Assembly (NCBI GenBank): GCA_016869675.1
Contig: VGDP01000024.1
Span: 1 to 49,671, forward strand
DNA from: Alphaproteobacteria bacterium
Lineage (GTDB): Bacteria > Pseudomonadota > Alphaproteobacteria > SP197
Direction: 5' to 3'
Length of the DNA: 49,671 nt
Positions 397-25,745 of this stretch are shown here, piece by piece (position 1 is the stretch's first letter; the number at the start of each line of letters is the position of its first letter). The notes below the pieces were generated by a model. That model made no database searches and was not told where the DNA came from. It saw nothing but the letters and a program-made list of their open reading frames with translations. The position numbers were made by a program, and so were the translations under genes.

Positions 397-1518
397 TCAA
401 CCGGCCGCGCGAGCCGGCGTTTCGCGGGCGATCCAGCCGCCGCCGAGTACCCGGTCGCCGTCGTAGAGCACACCGGCCTGGCCCGGCGCGATGGCGCCAT
501 CCGCGCGATCCAGGTCGACGACAAGGCGGTCGGGCGTGGTCTCGGCGACCGTCGCCGGCGCCGGCTCGCGGGTCGAGCGCACGCGCAGGCCGACGTGCGC
601 TCCGGCCATCGGCCCTGGTCCCTCGCCCAGCCAGTTGAGACCGCCCAGGACCACGCGCCGCCGTTCGAGCGCGGCGCGCGGGCCGACGGTCACCTGGCGC
701 GACGCGGCGTCGAGACCCACGACGTAGAGCGGCTCGGGCCCCGCGACACCGAGACCCCGGCGCTGGCCGATGGTGAAGTCGACGATGCCGTCGTGGCGGC
801 CGAGTTCGCGGCCCCGTTGATCGACGATGGCGCCGGGCGCGTCGGCGTCGGGCCGGACGCGCCGCACCACGTCGGCGTAGCGGCCCTCGGGCACGAAGCA
901 GATGTCCTGGCTGTCGGGCTTGCCGGCGACCGCGAGACCCAACTCCGCGCCGATCGCGCGCGTCGCGTCCTTGGTCAGGTCACCCAGGGGAAAGCGCAGG
1001 TAGTCAAGCTGGGCGCGTGTGGTCGCGAACAGGAAGTAGCTCTGGTCACGCCCCCGCTCGCGCGCGCGATGGAGGGCCACGCCGTCCGGTCCATCCACGC
1101 GCCGGGCGTAGTGCCCGGTGGCCAGCGCATCGGCGCCGAGCGAGCGGGCGATGTCCATCAGATCGGCGAACTTGACCCGCTGGTTGCAGCGCACGCACGG
1201 GATCGGCGTCAGCCCGGCGGCGTACGCATCGGCGAAGTCGTCGATCACGGCGGCGCGGAAGCGCGCCTCGAAATCGAGCACGTAGTGGCCGATGCCCAGC
1301 GCATCCGCCACCCGGCGCGCATCGTGGATGTCGGCGCCGGCGCAGCAGGCACCAGGATGCCGCGCCGCCGCGCCATGGTCGTAGAGCTGCAGCGTGACGC
1401 CGACCACCTCGCAGCCGGCGCGCGCGTAGAACGCGGCGACAACCGAGGAATCGACCCCGCCCGACATGGCGACGACGACGCGGCGGCCCGGCGCCACACC
1501 TAGGTCTGGTGCGCCCAT
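397..1518 (-). CDS. mnmA: tRNA-uridine 2-sulfurtransferase MnmA
   Basis: This is the 373-aa ATP-dependent thiolase that makes 2-thiouridine at position 34 of tRNA-Glu, -Gln and -Lys in the cytoplasm. The PP-loop SGGVDS is at residues 19-24. The first catalytic cysteine is in CNQRVKF (Cys111), the second in SQDICF near residue 205, and [12 protein letters not shown] lies in the central domain. Length fits the family. It is the last gene of the isc operon: its ATG overlaps the iscX TGA (TGATG at 1516-1520), which implies translational coupling. Since IscS is the known initial sulfur donor for MnmA in E. coli, the position makes functional sense. Direct transfer from either desulfurase here is inferred. 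Confidence 0.95.
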
Positions 1519-4599: not shown

Positions 4600-4627
4600 C
4601 CTGAACGGTCCTCGCCGCCGTGCTGAC

Positions 4628-4963
4628 TCAGACGCGGAAGGACTCGCCGCAACCGCAGCGTCCCTTCTCGTTCGGGTTCACGAACCGGAACCCGGACGTC
4701 AGCTTCTCGTCGACAAAATCCATTTCGGTGCCGACGATGAACATCACGGCCTTGGGATCGATCAGCACCGTGACGCCCTTGTCCTCGACGATCTCGTCGA
4801 ACTCGTTGCGTTCGTCGGCGTACTCGAGCGTGTAGGACAGGCCCGAACAGCCGCGCGTGCGCACGCCCACGCGGATGCCGACCGAGGGCTTGCCCCGCTT
4901 GTCCAGCAGCACGCGGATCTGAGTCGCCGCAGAATCCGACACCGTGATGATGGGCGCCGCCAT
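4628..4963 (-). CDS. iscA: Iron-sulfur carrier IscA (A-type)
   Basis: A 111-aa A-type carrier with the three conserved cysteines: Cys39 in TRGCSGLSY, and Cys103 and Cys105 in GRCGCGESF. The start MAAPIITVSD was chosen because ATG at 4961-4963 has a GGAG ribosome site just upstream (acggagacc) and matches the family's N-terminus. A longer frame runs upstream into iscU but is out of phase with it. IscA delivers [4Fe-4S] clusters to target proteins. Confidence 0.93.
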   Translation of the reverse strand: MAAPIITVSDSAATQIRVLLDKRGKPSVGIRVGVRTRGCSGLSYTLEYADERNEFDEIVEDKGVTVLIDPKAVMFIVGTEMDFVDEKLTSGFRFVNPNEKGRCGCGESFRV

Positions 4964-4986
4964 GATGGTCTCCGTGTCGACGCCCG

Positions 4987-5388
4987 CTACGACGCCTTGG
5001 CCTTGTCCAGGCCCGACTTGGCGCGGTAGTCGGCGATCGCGGCCTTGATAGCGTCCTCGGCCAGCACCGAGCAATGGATCTTCACCGGCGGCAGCGCCAG
5101 GTGCTGCGCGATGTCGGTGTTCTTGACCCGCTCGGCCTCGTCGATGGTCTTGCCCTTGACCCACTCGGTCACCAGCGAGCTCGACGCGATGGCGGAGCCG
5201 CAGCCGAACGTCTTGAACTTGGCGTCCTCGATCACGCCGCCCGCGCCCACGCGGATCTGCAGCTTCATCACGTCGCCGCACGCGGGCGCGCCGACCAGCC
5301 CGGTCCCGATCGCGGGGTCGGCCTTGTCAAACGAGCCCACGTTGCGCGGGTTCTCGTAGTGGTCGAGCACCTTGTCGTTATAGGCCAT
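4987..5388 (-). CDS. iscU: Fe-S scaffold protein IscU
   Basis: A 133-aa scaffold on which clusters are built. Ligands are Cys37 (PACGD), Cys63 (GCGSA) and Cys106 (KIHCS). The HscA recognition motif LPPVK is at 99-103. The start MAYNDKVLDHY was preferred over an ATG 14 codons upstream: it has a strong AAGGAGAG ribosome site, and the extra residues (MSRVSDRKNKKERE) are not family-like. It ends in TAG at the expected length. It lies between iscS and iscA. Confidence 0.96.
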   Translation of the reverse strand: MAYNDKVLDHYENPRNVGSFDKADPAIGTGLVGAPACGDVMKLQIRVGAGGVIEDAKFKTFGCGSAIASSSLVTEWVKGKTIDEAERVKNTDIAQHLALPPVKIHCSVLAEDAIKAAIADYRAKSGLDKAKAS

Positions 5389-5437
5389 CTCTCTCTCCTT
5401 CTTGTTCTTGCGATCGGAAACGCGCGACACGACCCGA

Positions 5438-6703
5438 TCAGTGTTCCGCCCATTGGATCGACTTCAGGTCGATGCCTTCCTGCACCATCTCCCACAGCGG
5501 GCTCATCTCGCGCAGCCGGCCGACGTGCTTCAGCACGGTCTCGATGGCGAACTCGACCTCGGCCTCGGTGGTGAAGCGGCCGATGCCGAAGCGGATCGAG
5601 GTGTGCGCCAGCTCCTCGTCCACGCCCAGCGCGCGCAGCACGTAGGACGGCTCCAACGACGCCGAGGTGCACGCCGAGCCCGACGACACGGCCACGTCCT
5701 TGATCGCCATCAGCAGTGATTCGCCCTCCACGTAGGCGAAGCTGAGGTTCAGGTTGCCCGGAATGCGGTGTTCCAGGTCGCCATTGACGAACACGTCGGG
5801 AATCGCCTTGACGATGCCCTCGTAGAGCCGGCGCTGCAGCCGGCGCAGCCGCTCGTTCTCGGCCGCCATCACGACCTGCGCGATGGCGCACGCTTCGCCT
5901 AGGCCGACGCACAAAGGCGTTGGCAACGTGCCGGAACGCATGCCGCGCTCCTGGCCGCCACCGTCGATCAGCGCCTTCAGACGCACACGAGGCTTGCGCC
6001 GCACATAGAGCGCGCCGATGCCCTTGGGCCCGTAGATCTTGTGTCCCGAGATGCTCATCAGGTCGATGTTCATCGCCTCGACGTCCATCGGGATCTTGCC
6101 GACCGCCTGGGCCGCGTCGGTGTGGAAGAACACGCCACGTTCGCGGCACAGCTTGCCGATCGCGGCGATCGGCTGGATCACGCCGATCTCGTTGTTGACC
6201 GCCATGATCGAGACGACCAGCGTGCGATCGGTGATCGCCTGGGCCAGCACGTCCAGGTCGACCAGGCCGTCGGGCTTGACCGGCAGGTAGGTGACCTTGA
6301 TGCCGTCCTGCTCCAGGTGGCGGCACGAATCCAGCACGCACTTGTGCTCGGTGCGCGTCGTGATGATGTGGTCCTTGCGGTCCTTGTAGAACGCCGCCAG
6401 GCCCTTGAGCGCTAGGTTGTTCGATTCGGTCGCGCCCGAGGTGTAGACGATCTCGCGTTCGTCCGCGCCGATCAGGGCGGCGACCTGGCCGCGCGCGTGC
6501 TCGACCGCCTCCTCCGCCTCCCAGCCGTACTTGTGGCTGCGCGAATGGGGGTTGCCGAACTTCTCGGTGAAGTAGGGCAGCATGGACTGCACCACCCGCG
6601 GGTCGCACGGCGTCGTCGCCTGATAGTCCATGTAGACGGGCAGCGTCATGATGTTCGGGCGGGCGTCCGAACCATGGCCGTTGCTGCTCGCGGGGTCGTT
6701 CAT
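5438..6703 (-). CDS. iscS: Cysteine desulfurase IscS
   Basis: A 421-aa PLP enzyme that removes sulfur from cysteine and passes it as persulfide to IscU and tRNA-thiolation proteins. The PLP lysine is in [10 protein letters not shown], and the catalytic Cys lies in the loop [17 protein letters not shown]. The substrate/PLP region [14 protein letters not shown] is intact. The start [11 protein letters not shown] was chosen because GGAGGA lies just upstream of the ATG at 6701-6703. The core begins at [14 protein letters not shown], so the N-terminus carries about 18 extra residues. Confidence 0.94.
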
Positions 6704-19265: not shown

Positions 19266-20669
19266 ATGGCGGATCTCCAGGCTGCTCCTCCGACCTGGAG
19301 AGCCATGGCCTTCGGCCCGCTGGCCCCTTTCACCTGGACGCTGAGCCTGGGCGTGGGTCTGCACGCCATCGCCTGGTACATCGTCGCGGCCGCCGTGCCG
19401 AGCACGGTCCTCGAGCTCGGCCAGGCGGAGCTGTTGAGCTGGACCACCACGCTGTTCCTGGTCGGCACCATCGTGGGCGCCGCATCGGCCGGCCCGCTCA
19501 GGGGGTCGCACGGCGCGCGAGCGATCCTGGTGGCGGCGTCCGTCGTCGTCATCGCGGGTTGCGCGCTGGCCGCCAGCGCGCCGTCCATGATCGTCGTGGT
19601 CGTCGGCCGGGGCCTCCAGGGCCTGGGCGAAGGCGTGATCCTGGCCACCTGCTACACCCTGGCGCGCGACCTGTTCCCGCCCGAGGCGTTCGCGTGCGTG
19701 TTCGCGGCCTACGCCGTCGGCTGGGCCCTGGGCGCCGTGGTCGGGCCGATCGCCGGCGGCGCGCTGACGGAGGTGATCGGCTTACGCGCCGCGTTTTGGG
19801 GTCTGATGCCCCTCGCCGTCCTGTTCGCCCTGCTTGTGCTGTGGCTCACGCCGCGCGAACGCGGCAACCGTCAGGGCGAGGTCCCGCCTCTGCTCCGCCT
19901 CGGCGTCCTCGGCGTTGGCGCCTTCGCGATCTGCCTAGCCAGCACGCGCACCACGACCGCGACGATCGTCGGGTTCATGGCGGTGGCCGCGCTGGCGCGC
20001 GCGCTGACGGTGATCCTGGGTCGGCGCGCGCCGCGTCGCGTCTTCTTCTCGGCGCTGATCGATCCGCGCCAAACGGTCGGGCTCGGCCTGTGGATCATCC
20101 TGCTCAGTTTCCTGGCCGAGACGTCGGTGCACGTCTTCGTGCCATTCCTCGTGCAGACCGCCCACGACGTCTCGCCCACCTTCATCGGCTACTTCGTCGC
20201 CATCATCGCGCTCGCCTGGTCGGGCAGCGCGGTCCTGGGTTCGGGCATGACCGGGCGTGCATTTGACGCGCTGGTCGCCGTCGGACCGAGCCTCATCGCC
20301 GGGGGCCTGGCCGCGTCGACCTGGGCCCTGGCCCGCCCCGGCCTGGGCCTGCTCGCCATCGCGCTCATCATCATCGGGCTGGGATTCGGCATCTCGTACA
20401 CCTTCGTCACCCAGCGCGTCGTGGCGGCGGCGGCCGGCGAGGGAGACGTCACCTCCAGCGCGGTCCCGACGCTCGGCAACATCGGATCGGCGGTTGGCGC
20501 GGCGCTGGCCGGGCTGGTCGGCAACGCCGCCGGCTTCAGCGCGAAGGCCGGCGGCCCCGGCGCGATTCTGGCCGGTCAATGGGCGATCGGGGTGGCGACG
20601 GCGATCGCCGTCGTCCCCGAGCTCGGCGCCTTCGCCCTTGCCCGGCGCCGGGTGGCGCATCGTCCATGA
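19266..20669 (+). CDS. MFS transporter (first of a tandem pair)
   Basis: A 467-aa integral membrane protein of the major facilitator superfamily, drug-efflux-like, with about 14 hydrophobic segments. The motif VVVGRGLQGLGEGVILA fits MFS motif B/C, and GLGFGISYTFVTQRVVAAAA is near the C-terminus. The start MADLQAAPPTW (ATG 19266) was chosen because the upstream extension does not fit the paralogue. Its TGA overlaps the next gene's ATG (ATGA). Substrate unknown. Confidence 0.85.
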   Translation: MADLQAAPPTWRAMAFGPLAPFTWTLSLGVGLHAIAWYIVAAAVPSTVLELGQAELLSWTTTLFLVGTIVGAASAGPLRGSHGARAILVAASVVVIAGCALAASAPSMIVVVVGRGLQGLGEGVILATCYTLARDLFPPEAFACVFAAYAVGWALGAVVGPIAGGALTEVIGLRAAFWGLMPLAVLFALLVLWLTPRERGNRQGEVPPLLRLGVLGVGAFAICLASTRTTTATIVGFMAVAALARALTVILGRRAPRRVFFSALIDPRQTVGLGLWIILLSFLAETSVHVFVPFLVQTAHDVSPTFIGYFVAIIALAWSGSAVLGSGMTGRAFDALVAVGPSLIAGGLAASTWALARPGLGLLAIALIIIGLGFGISYTFVTQRVVAAAAGEGDVTSSAVPTLGNIGSAVGAALAGLVGNAAGFSAKAGGPGAILAGQWAIGVATAIAVVPELGAFALARRRVAHRP

Positions 20670-22084
20670 ACTCCTCCGCCAATCCGCCGCCGACGTGGGA
20701 CGAGCTGCTGTTCGGGCGCTACGCCGCCGTGGCGTGGACCCTGTGCCTGGGCACCGCCATGCACGCCACGGCCTGGTACATCCTAGCCACCGCCCTGCCC
20801 TCGACCGTCGCCGACGTCGGCGGCGCGGCGCTGGTGAGCTGGGTCGTGTCGATCTACCTGGTCGCCTCGATCGTCACCGGCTCGGCTTCGGGCCTGCTCA
20901 AGTCGCGCTACGGCAGCCGGCCGGTGGTGGTGGTCGCCGCCACGGTCTTCCTGATCGGTACGGTGGTCGCGGCCACCGCGACATCCATGGCGATGGTCGT
21001 GGCCGGGCGCGCGCTGCAGGGCTTCGGCGAGGGCGTGATCTGGGCGGTGACCACGATCCTAGTCAAGGACCTACTGCCCAACGAAGCCGTGCCGCCCATG
21101 TACGCCATCCTCGGCGTCGTGTGGGCCGCGGCGGCGGTCATCGGGCCGCTGGCGAGCGGGATCCTGGTCGAGGTGTGGTCGTGGCGCGGCGCCCTGTGGA
21201 GCCTGCTGCCCATCGCCGTGGTCTACATCGCCCTGGTGCAGTTCGTGGTGCCGCCGGTGGCGCCGTCGCGCGCCGAGCTCCGCTTCCCCTTGCTGCGCCT
21301 CCTGCTAATCGCCGCGGGCGTCGTGGCGCTGTCGGTCGGCGCCGCCATCGCCGACCCGATGCCGTCGGCACTCGCCCTCGCCATCGCCGTCGCGCTCATC
21401 GCCGGCACGCTGATCGCCGACGGCGGCGCGCGCACGCCGCTGTTCCCGCGCGATCTGATGCGGCGCGGCGCGGTCGCGCCCACCGGCATCTGGGTCCTGA
21501 CCCTAATGTTCTGCGCCGAGGCCGGCGTCAGCGTGTACGTCGCCCTGCTCGCCCAGCAGCTGTTCGGCGCCTCGCCCGTGGTCGCGGGCTACATACTGGC
21601 GGTCGTAGCGTTCGCCTGGACGTCGGGCGCGCTGGCCGTCGCCCGCGCTCGACGGAGCGTGGTGGACATCCTGATCCTGGCCGGACCGATTCTGCTGGTG
21701 GCCGGCCTGGTCGGGACGGCCGTGGCGTTCGCCGCACACGCCTTGATCCTCCTGATCGTGGCGCTGGTGGTGGTCGGCCTCGCGTTCGGGTTCGCCTACA
21801 CCTTCGTCGCCCAGCGCGTGCTGGCCCACGCCAGGCCCGAGGAAAGCGACGTGACCGCCGGCGCCCTGCCGACACTCGAGGCCACCGGGGCCGCCTTCGG
21901 GGCAGCGCTGGCGGGGCTGGTCGGCAATTTGACGGGCATCGCCGCGCTGGGTGATCCGGACGCGCTTCGCTCGGGCGCGGTGTGGGTGATGGCGCTGGGC
22001 GCCGCCATCGCCACGCCGGCCGTCCTGGGCGCCTTCGTCCTGGTGCGCCGCAGCGCGCCCGTGCCCGCCCCGGTCAGCGGATGA
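20666..22084 (+). CDS. MFS transporter (second of a tandem pair)
   Basis: A 472-aa paralogue of the preceding protein. It shares the PPPTW-like N-terminus, a first helix with HATAWYILATALPSTVADVG (compare HAIAWYIVAAAVPSTVLELG), VVAGRALQGFGEGVIWA and FGFAYTFVAQRVLAHA. The pair looks like a tandem duplication and may form a heterodimer or handle related substrates. The ATG overlaps the upstream stop by 4 bp, so translation is coupled. Its 3' end overlaps the convergent multi-stop reading frame by 11 bp. Confidence 0.85.
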   Translation: MNSSANPPPTWDELLFGRYAAVAWTLCLGTAMHATAWYILATALPSTVADVGGAALVSWVVSIYLVASIVTGSASGLLKSRYGSRPVVVVAATVFLIGTVVAATATSMAMVVAGRALQGFGEGVIWAVTTILVKDLLPNEAVPPMYAILGVVWAAAAVIGPLASGILVEVWSWRGALWSLLPIAVVYIALVQFVVPPVAPSRAELRFPLLRLLLIAAGVVALSVGAAIADPMPSALALAIAVALIAGTLIADGGARTPLFPRDLMRRGAVAPTGIWVLTLMFCAEAGVSVYVALLAQQLFGASPVVAGYILAVVAFAWTSGALAVARARRSVVDILILAGPILLVAGLVGTAVAFAAHALILLIVALVVVGLAFGFAYTFVAQRVLAHARPEESDVTAGALPTLEATGAAFGAALAGLVGNLTGIAALGDPDALRSGAVWVMALGAAIATPAVLGAFVLVRRSAPVPAPVSG

Positions 22085-22862
22085 CCTGAAATACCCCGTC
22101 GATCTTGCTACAGAACCGCCCGGTCGCGAGCCGCGTGTCGGGCTGGGCGTCGTCGTAGAGCAGGATCGGATCCTCGCCCGCGCCATCGGCCACCACCCAC
22201 ACGCGGCCGTCCAGGTAGGGCGTCGCGGTCAGGTCGGCGGCCAGAGGTTTCAGCGGCAGTTCGAGAAACTTGTGCATCTAGGCGCGCATGTCCTCGGGCA
22301 TGGGGCCGAAGATGCCGGTGAAATCGACCGCCTTCGCCGCGTGCGCCGCCTCGAAGGCGGCCACGTCGCCGCGCCCGATCGCCTCGTGCAGCGCCGCGAC
22401 CGCGGCGAGCACCTCGGACCCGTCCCCGCTCACGGGCTCGGCATCCAGCCAGATCCAGCGCGGCGCGCCGGCGACGTCCACGGACACCTCGACGCGCCCC
22501 TCGCCGTCGATGCGCTGCTCCAGGATCGACGGCACGTCGAAGGACTCCGGGATGACGACCTCAGTTTAGCCGCCGTCCTGCGTCGCCTAGGATTCGACGG
22601 CGATGGTGCTGGCCCCGTCGATCAGCCACAGGCCGACGCTGGCGGCGTCCGTCAGCGGCGCTCCATCCTAGCTCGGGTCGTAGGCGAAGGGATGCACCGG
22701 GATGCCGTTGACGAAGATCATGCCCGCCGCATGCTCGCGCACGACGTCGACCGTGTAGTTGGGCGGCATGCCTTCCTGGGCCGCGAGCGGCATGGCCGCC
22801 CCCAGCCCGAGCACCAAGGGGCCAAGCGCCGGGGCCGCCGCCCGCGCGATTCCGCTCATCAT
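22074..22862 (-). pseudogene. Secreted protein gene interrupted by four in-frame stop codons
   Basis: One frame runs unbroken by indels from ATG 22862 (GGGAGA ribosome site upstream) to TGA 22074, about 262 codons. It is interrupted by TAG (22668-22670), TAG (22587-22589), TAA (22566-22568) and TAG (22278-22280). The first piece carries a signal peptide (LGPLVLGLGAAMPLAAQ). The pieces between the stops read as ordinary protein (RVEVSVDVAGAPRWIWLDAE, then RVWVVADGAGEDPILLYDD). All four stops could be single C-to-T changes in CAG/CAA codons. No family recognised. It lies 39 bp after prfB. Each piece alone (64, 85 and 67 aa) could instead be a small gene, but their shared frame argues against that. 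Confidence 0.7.
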
Positions 22863-22901
22863 GTTGACGTCTCCCGTGGTTAGGTCCTGGCCCCCGCCGG
22901 G

Positions 22902-24027
22902 TCAGTTTGCCTTGGCGGTCTCGGCGACGCCACCGATCCTTTGCGCCAAAGCGGCGGCCATGAAGGCGTCCAGATCGCCGCCGAGCACGCCGTCGGTGTC
23001 GCTGGTCTCGACCCCGGTGCGCAGGTCCTTGACCATGCGGTAGGGATGCAGCACGTACGAGCGGATCTGGTGGCCCCAGCCGATGTCGGTCTTCTGGGCG
23101 TTGAGCGCCTGGGCCGCCTCCTCGCGCTTGCGCAGCTCGGCCTCGTAGAGCCGCGCGCGCAGCATGGCCCACGCCTCGGCGCGGTTGCGGTGCTGCGAAC
23201 GGTTGGTCTGGCACGCCACGACGATGCCGGTGGGCATGTGGGTTAGGCGCACGGCGCTGTCGGTCTTGTTGACGTGCTGGCCGCCGGCGCCCGATGCCCG
23301 GTAGGTGTCGGTGCGCACGTCCTTCTCCTCGATCGCGATCTCGATCGACTCGTCGACCACCGGGTAGACCCACACGCTGGCGAACGATGTGTGCCGCCGC
23401 GCCGCGCTGTCGAACGGCGAGATGCGCACCAGGCGGTGCACGCCGCTTTCGGTCTTGAGCCAACCGTAGGCGTTGGCGCCGCTGACGCGCAGCGTGGCCG
23501 ACTTGATTCCGGCCTCGTCGCCGGGCGCCGACTCCACTTCCACCACCTTGTAGCCGTGCTGTTCGGACCAGCGCAGGTACATGCGGTAGAGCATCTCGGC
23601 CCAATCCTGGCTTTCCGTGCCGCCGGCGCCGGGGTGGACCTCGATGTAGCAGTCGTTGCCGTCGGCCTCGCTCGAGAGCAGGCTTTCGATGCGCAGCGTC
23701 GCAGCGCGCTTAGCCGCGTCGGCCAGCGCCGCCTCGGCCGAATCGAGCAGCGCCGTGTCGCCGTCGGCCTCGGCCAGCTCAGCCAGCTCCAGGTTGTCGG
23801 CGCGCTCGCGCGTCAGCCCCTCGAACTGGGCGATCGCCGCCGACAGCCGCTGGCGCTCGCGCATCACGCGCTGCGCCTCGGCCGGGTCCTTCCACAGGCT
23901 TTCGGACTGCGCCTGGTCGTCGAGCGCCTTCAGGCGGTCCTTGACCGTATCCCAGTCAAAGACACCTCCTCAGGAGGTCGAGCGTCTCCTCGATGGTCGC
24001 GGCAAGGTTGGCGATTTCGGCGCGCAA
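22902..24027 (-). CDS. prfB: Peptide chain release factor 2 with programmed +1 frameshift
   Basis: RF2 ends translation at UGA and UAA. The zero frame starts at TTG 24027 ([20 protein letters not shown]) and hits TGA at 23958-23956 after 23 codons. Ribosomes must skip T23958 and resume at 23957 ([14 protein letters not shown]). The site is AGGAGG-TGT-CTT-TGA-C, with the same 3-nt spacing as in E. coli. The joined product is about 374 aa, with SPF ([12 protein letters not shown]) for stop recognition and GGQ ([14 protein letters not shown]) for hydrolysis. Coding parts are 24027-23959 and 23957-22902. The frameshift lets RF2 levels control RF2 synthesis. Confidence 0.93.
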
Positions 24028-24164: not shown

Positions 24165-25745
24165 ATGACCGCCGACACCGAGGGCCGCCGCCGCGGCGGA
24201 CGCGAGGCGCGCCGCGCGCGCCGCGCGCAACCGCTGCCGCTCAACGAGGCGCCGATCCGCCCCGGCATGGAAGGCGGCCAGTACAAGCCGCTGGACGACG
24301 CGGGCGTGGCACGCATCCACGGCGCCGTGCTCGACGTGCTGGAGCAGATCGGGCTGGCCCAGGCGATCCCGAGCTGCGTCGAGGCGTGCACCGCCAAGGG
24401 CGCCGTCATGGGCGCCGACGGCCGGCTGCGCTTCCCGCGCGCGCTCGTCGAGGACACGGTGGCCAAGGCCAATCGGCGCTTCGTCATGTACGGCCAGGAC
24501 CCACGCCACGACATGGAGCCGTGGGGCAACAGGGTCTATTTCGGCACGGCCGGCGCGGCGGTCGAGGTGGTCGACGTCAAGAACCGCCGCTATCGCGAAA
24601 GCCTGCTCGCCGACCTCTACGATATGGCGCGGCTGGTCGACGTGCTCGACAACATCCACTTTTTCCAGCGCACCTGCGTGCCGCGCGACATGCCGACCGC
24701 GCGCGACATGGACTTCAACACGCTCTACGCCTGCGTCTCGGGAACCACCAAGCACGTCGGCTCGTCGTGGGTGAACCCGCTCTATGTCGAGAAGTCGTTC
24801 GACATGCTGCATCTGATCGCGGGCGGCGAGAAGAAGTGGCGCGACCGCCCGTTCGTCAGCCAGTCCAACTGCTTCGTCGTGCCGCCCCTGAAGTTCGCCG
24901 AGGACGCGTGCCGCTGCCTCGAGGCCGCCGTGAAGGGCGGCATGCCGGTGCTGCTGCTCTCGGCCGGCCAGGCGGGCGCGACCGCGCCAGCGGCGCTGGC
25001 CGGCGCCGTGGTCCAGGCGGTGGCCGAGGTGCTGGCCGGCCTGGTCTACGTCAACGCGCTCAAGCCCGGACACCCGGCGATCTTCGGCACATGGCCGTTC
25101 GTCTCGGACCTGCGCACCGGCGCCATGTGCGGCGGCTCGGCCGAGCAGGCGCTGCTGTCGGCCGCGTGCGGCCAGATGGCGCACTTCTACGACCTGGTGG
25201 GCGGCGCCGCCGCCGGCATGTGCGACGCCAAGCTGCCCGACGCCCAGGCCGGCTACGAGAAGGGCGTCAACCTAGCGCTGGCCGGCGTCTCGGGTCTCAA
25301 CCTGGTCTACGAGGCGGCGGGCATGCACGCGAGCCTGCTCGGCTTCTCGCTGGAAAGCCTGGTCATCGACAACGACATCATCGGTCAGGCGCAGCGGGCC
25401 ATCCGCGGCATCGATGTGGACGACGACAGCCTGTCGGTCGAGGCCATGCGCGAGGTGTGCATCGGCGGCCCCGGCCATTACCTGGGCCACGAGCAGACGC
25501 TGCGCCTGATGCAGTCAGCCTACGTCTACCCGCAGATCGGCGACCGCTCGAGCCCCAAGGAATGGGTCGAGCGCGGCGAGCCCGACATCCTGACCCACGC
25601 GGACCGGCGCATGCGCGAGATCCTGTCCAGCCACTACCCGCACCACGTGGCCGACGACGTGGACGCCGAGATCCGCCGCCAGTTCGACATCAAGCTGCCG
25701 CGCGCCGCCATGTCCCCCGGCGACGGACGGTGGGAGGCGGCCTGA
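24165..25745 (+). CDS. MttB-family corrinoid methyltransferase (non-pyrrolysine)
   Basis: A 526-aa TIM-barrel protein of the trimethylamine methyltransferase (MttB) family. The frame is continuous with no internal TAG, so it belongs to the pyrrolysine-free group, whose known members demethylate quaternary amines such as glycine betaine and pass the methyl group to a corrinoid protein. Family segments include CVSGTTKHVGSSWVNP, LLLSAGQAGATAPAALAGAV and MCDAKLPDAQAGYEKG. The Arg-rich N-terminus (about 22 residues) is odd. No corrinoid protein or MtgA partner is in the window, so the substrate cannot be named. Ribosome site GAGGA precedes the ATG. Confidence 0.88.
   Translation: MTADTEGRRRGGREARRARRAQPLPLNEAPIRPGMEGGQYKPLDDAGVARIHGAVLDVLEQIGLAQAIPSCVEACTAKGAVMGADGRLRFPRALVEDTVAKANRRFVMYGQDPRHDMEPWGNRVYFGTAGAAVEVVDVKNRRYRESLLADLYDMARLVDVLDNIHFFQRTCVPRDMPTARDMDFNTLYACVSGTTKHVGSSWVNPLYVEKSFDMLHLIAGGEKKWRDRPFVSQSNCFVVPPLKFAEDACRCLEAAVKGGMPVLLLSAGQAGATAPAALAGAVVQAVAEVLAGLVYVNALKPGHPAIFGTWPFVSDLRTGAMCGGSAEQALLSAACGQMAHFYDLVGGAAAGMCDAKLPDAQAGYEKGVNLALAGVSGLNLVYEAAGMHASLLGFSLESLVIDNDIIGQAQRAIRGIDVDDDSLSVEAMREVCIGGPGHYLGHEQTLRLMQSAYVYPQIGDRSSPKEWVERGEPDILTHADRRMREILSSHYPHHVADDVDAEIRRQFDIKLPRAAMSPGDGRWEAA

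Follow-up and report, generated by a model that had tools for sequence, protein, structure and literature searches.

A 262-codon reading frame beside prfB in the window, the whole stretch of 49,671 nucleotides analyzed here, contains four in-frame stop codons, and we consider it to be a nonsense-mutated pseudogene of a lineage-specific exported protein, with a probability of roughly 0.85. An earlier note on this DNA had proposed a pseudogene hit by nonsense changes only; an intact syntenic ortholog, the presence of RF1, the tRNA set, the use of TAG at gene ends, and other broken genes in the genome all support that reading.

A single reading frame passes through four stop codons

The broken gene, its start region, and its stops are as follows, with the residue at the matching column of an intact ortholog given for each interior stop.

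22862-22074, minus strand: broken gene, one frame with four interior stops (262 codons, ATG at 22862)
22863..22880, minus strand: putative ribosome-binding region, CCACGGGAGACGTCAAC before ATGATG, read from the sequence
22670-22668, minus strand: in-frame TAG, codon 65 (ortholog Ala)
22589-22587, minus strand: in-frame TAG, codon 92 (ortholog His)
22568-22566, minus strand: in-frame TAA, codon 99 (ortholog Phe)
22280-22278, minus strand: in-frame TAG, codon 195, followed directly by ATG (ortholog Gln)
22076-22074, minus strand: terminal TGA

No frameshift or indel is seen across the 262 codons, and the second and third stops lie six codons apart. A codon-usage model with this genome as its training set favors the frame over the other five frames by 114.7 bits in total; taken singly, the four longer pieces favor it by margins of 10.6 to 42.9 bits, and the six-codon piece is uninformative in this test. 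The GC3 value is 0.92, as in the neighboring MFS transporter gene (0.92) and close to that of the main prfB frame (0.93). Because both codon usage and GC3 support the frame, it represents a real gene rather than a chance run of small ORFs. The earlier proposal that small ORFs in one frame join through TAG, TAG, TAA, and TAG agrees with the codon usage and also with the stop-free syntenic ortholog.

The ATGATG start is followed by a hydrophobic, signal-peptide-like segment, and the product of the intact gene is predicted to be an exported protein. Searches of Pfam, PHROGs, and PDB sequences gave no match above threshold for this family, and plasmids, phages, and viral contigs contained no relative above threshold. 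An AlphaFold model of the ortholog, built from two sequences, is poor (mean pLDDT of 51); this weak model suggests only that a beta domain lies at the N terminus, with a part of mixed alpha/beta structure after it.

An intact ortholog is found in the same gene order

The genes on either side of the broken frame are the following.

22902..24027, minus strand: prfB (RF2), upstream neighbor, start codon TTG near 24027
AGGAGG 23970-23965, CTT 23961-23959, and TGA 23958-23956, minus strand: +1 programmed-frameshift site of prfB
20579..22084, plus strand: MFS transporter, convergent downstream neighbor (MFS_1, E = 7.6e-37)

The MFS transporter gene runs into the end of the broken frame, with an overlap of its last 11 bases. 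The frameshift site of prfB is of the classical RF2 autoregulatory type, AGGAGG followed by CTT TGA C. Another TGA near prfB, at 23972, was rejected as a lesion, as it lies upstream of this site, where the frame is unused.

An ortholog without interior stops is present in G004 (Alphaproteobacteria bacterium Baikal-deep-G51, a metagenome-assembled genome), a member of the same family as the source genome. It shows 39% identity over residues 29 to 260, and the alignment spans the whole broken frame except for the signal region. Among 61 genomes, G004 is the only other holder of the gene. Similarly, a search of 16 genomes of the order finds the gene in the source genome and G004 only, and a scan of GTDB contigs yields only the G004 locus. 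Gene order there (stretch L007) is MFS transporter, intact gene, prfB, as in the source genome. The intact ortholog thus stands in conserved gene order, as is looked for when a pseudogene is called.

This ortholog allowed two checks suggested in the earlier note to be run. The residues opposite the four stops could be read off directly (A, H, F, and Q), and the stops are not retained in the one relative that has the gene, since the only ortholog in the 16 genomes of the order and the GTDB contigs is without any stop. The note had further allowed that adjacency to prfB might be coincidence. Indeed, the neighborhood is inherited: the intact gene lies beside prfB in the relative too, and because the order of MFS transporter, gene, and prfB is ancestral, proximity to prfB is uninformative about RF2.

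UAG and UAA appear to be read as termination

Judging from the genome sequence, UAG and UAA would act as terminators here. The genome encodes RF1 (493 bits) with no stop inside it, and none of the 42 tRNAs found in the genome has an anticodon for UAG, UAA, or UGA. Across 632 coding stretches in 0.76 Mb of sampled sequence, gene ends comprise 415 TGA, 182 TAG, and 35 TAA codons; TAG terminates 29% of genes and TAA 5.5%. With RF1 present, no suppressor tRNA, and this share of gene ends, the earlier statement that TAG is a true stop holds. A reassigned UAG/UAA code was not found, given the mixed residues at interior stops and the ordinary use of terminal TAG and TAA, and we see no sign of an altered genetic code.

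Two features in the window bear on pyrrolysine.

24165-25745: mttB-family gene, intact, without in-frame UAG, containing the PYLIS_3 match
25218-25317, plus strand: Rfam PYLIS_3 match (52 bits)

Pyrrolysine recoding was considered on account of this nearby match and rejected: the mttB homolog has no in-frame stop, pyrrolysyl-tRNA synthetase (PylS) is absent (best match of 33 bits against a cutoff of 178), and there is no CUA tRNA. The PYLIS_3 match reflects the mttB gene family, not recoding.

Interior stops are frequent in the source genome

The source genome, a 3.49-Mb draft in 97 contigs, was sampled in stretches totaling 0.76 Mb and later 1.16 Mb (L041-L058, L072-L091, and L136-L155). By a codon model, reading, and a homology list, we count 24 interior stops, four of them in the broken gene, within coding sequence amounting to about 0.54 Mb; such counts are partly a matter of judgment, as the codon-model candidates include gene junctions that were removed by reading. 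The homology lists also include shadow-frame matches and gene ends, and the sites used are those flanked by good similarity to either side. For the controls, codon-model candidates were sorted by reading, which left about 3 interior stops in G004 (0.34 Mb) and no more than 1 in a second related genome, G006 (0.27 Mb). Leaving out the broken gene, the three genomes together have 24 such stops, of which 20 fall in the source genome (P about 3e-4), a contrast that is only indicative because gene junctions were sorted by eye and 4 of 24 stops come from the homology list. In G004, a single substrate-binding-protein gene (stretch L120, about 4603-5602) carries a TAA (5225) together with a frameshift.

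Genes broken by stops in the source genome include PPK2, thioesterase, TauD-like, YjbH, PhyH, DAO, hydantoinase B, AMP-ligase, amine oxidase, and EamA genes, and a class III cyclase and a class III aminotransferase gene have two stops each. One Pfam match runs across the stop for PPK2, the cyclase domain, 4HBT, TauD, YjbH, Aminotran_3, PhyH, DAO, Hydantoinase_B, AMP-binding, Amino_oxidase, PNPOx, and EamA. Genes with several stops include the following.

L043, 9845 and 10349: class III cyclase, two stops, no shift
L141, about 1395-1500, minus strand: SppA-like S49 peptidase with TAA, TAG, and TAG; frame of more than 230 codons, no shift

Because the SppA-like gene has three stops without a shift, the broken gene is not the only one of its kind. 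Frameshifts also break genes, among them those for an ABC-transporter ATPase (L056) and a Rieske-type protein (L085), and a stop and a frameshift occur together in a TauD-like gene in L050 and at loci in L137 and L141. Several other listed frameshift sites were rejected as gene fusions or junctions, for example, a xanthine-dehydrogenase-like pair in L077. A mixture of residues stands opposite the interior stops (Y, E, W, Q, H, R, and others), and each of TAA, TAG, and TGA is represented; the Tyr opposite the PPK2 stop is what we take to be the family residue. For the genome as a whole, the sample would mean dozens of broken genes.

TAA makes up 12 of the 24 interior stops listed, against 18% expected from uniform mutation and 5.5% among gene ends. 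The sites concerned are in L043, L044, L050, L075, L076, L081, L085, and L088 and at 22568 in the broken gene, and several fall at Tyr columns (TAC to TAA). This excess, which is lower in the homology-supported list of interior stops, may reflect a C-to-A mutation bias or the selection of sites.

A proposed history of the broken gene

If the gene is a pseudogene, the ancestor shared with the Baikal-deep-G51 lineage would have carried, between prfB and the MFS transporter, an exported-protein gene some 262 codons long. The source lineage would have gained four nonsense substitutions and no frameshift, while the gene is still intact in Baikal-deep-G51. Initiation would be normal, and RF1 would release the chain at the UAG of codon 65, leaving a 64-residue exported fragment, with the later pieces probably not made in useful amounts. 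The gene would then be one among many recently broken genes of this genome. The stops, the intact syntenic ortholog, the preserved codon usage, RF1 and the tRNAs, and the many similarly broken genes are shown by the data; that function was lost, in which order the mutations came, and what becomes of the RNA are what we infer.

Some observations sit less easily with a pseudogene. About 2% of random substitutions in the broken gene yield a stop under unbiased mutation, a rate at which four stops point to about 50 substitutions or more; the probability of four or more stops is 0.02 at 50 substitutions and 0.16 at 100. Some mutation bias, or an extreme case picked from many broken genes, is therefore needed. 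Despite the many substitutions implied, codon usage and GC3 (0.92) look undamaged and no indel is seen, which is somewhat surprising for one gene and less so for one among dozens broken. This is a mild tension rather than evidence for readthrough. The richness in TAA of the interior stops found by codon usage, beyond what uniform mutation predicts, is also left unexplained by a pseudogene.

Alternative explanations

How the stops arose bears on one alternative, a recent burst of C-to-T changes at CAG and CAA codons in an otherwise intact gene. Every stop is indeed one C-to-T step from CAG or CAA, so the earlier suggestion of such an origin stands as possible, but it is not required, as the ortholog has Gln at only one of the four columns. 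Since T ends only 13 of the 141 codons of the broken gene that end in C or T, at most about 15% of third-position Cs have changed, whereas a burst would need four of nine CAR codons to have been hit (P = 0.036 at the 15% upper bound). C at third positions is preserved as well as it is in the neighbors, and stops elsewhere in the genome fall at Tyr, Glu, Cys, and Trp columns. A burst of a single mutation type, raised in the earlier note, is disfavored on these grounds, and we regard it as the least probable of the alternatives. Stops could also be artifacts of base calling or assembly, the source being a metagenome-assembled genome, and both the 97-contig draft state and the higher frequency of interior stops than in the two related genomes would fit. 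However, the stops cluster by gene (four here, three in the SppA-like gene, and two each in the cyclase and aminotransferase genes), random errors at a density of about 20 per 180,000 codons would not put four into one 262-codon gene, and the named broken genes mostly look dispensable. Errors of this kind are accordingly a very unlikely source.

Functional readthrough, in which UAG and UAA are passed at some rate to give a low level of full-length protein, would account for a frame, codon usage, and GC3 that are kept past all four stops and for the several other genes with stops in otherwise intact frames; it has also been argued from dN/dS that bacterial in-frame stops often do not mark pseudogenes (Belinky et al. 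2021, PMC7918605). Against this, four stops in series multiply the losses, RF1 is intact, suppressor tRNA and PylS are lacking, and TAG is a common true terminator. Further, the residues at interior stops are mixed, all three stop codons are involved, and frameshifted genes occur too. The earlier note had listed readthrough as an alternative worth a test; it has gained no positive evidence, nothing requires it, and we judge it very unlikely, at about the level of sequencing error. A broader version, in which the lineage tolerates UAA and UAG and low-level readthrough lets genes with several stops, such as the broken gene and the SppA-like one, give some full-length protein and keeps their frames under selection, seems slightly less probable still.

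Comparison with known systems

Two known systems resemble the broken gene in part. Like pyrrolysine UAG recoding, it has in-frame UAG codons and a PYLIS_3 (mttB) match nearby; unlike that system, PylS above the cutoff and a CUA tRNA are missing, mttB is without in-frame UAG, and one of the stops is UAA. As in the cases of Belinky et al. 2021 (PMC7918605), interior TAG and TAA codons are followed by sequence that is still coding-like, without a frameshift. Those cases, however, were retained only if the same stop was common to at least two species. Here, the only known relative is without the stops, and since no second species shares them, the broken gene would not have been retained under the rule of PMC7918605.

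As a pseudogene, the broken gene is ordinary. The genome, which seems to carry interior stops at several times the frequency seen in two relatives, is a place to study ongoing gene loss, and if peptides spanning the stops were ever found, it would become a place to study bacterial readthrough. The gene is most like bacterial unitary nonsense pseudogenes, in which an intact ortholog lies in the same place, premature stops are present, and the start and frame are still recognizable, although the usual nonsense pseudogene has a single lesion and this one has four stops and no indel.
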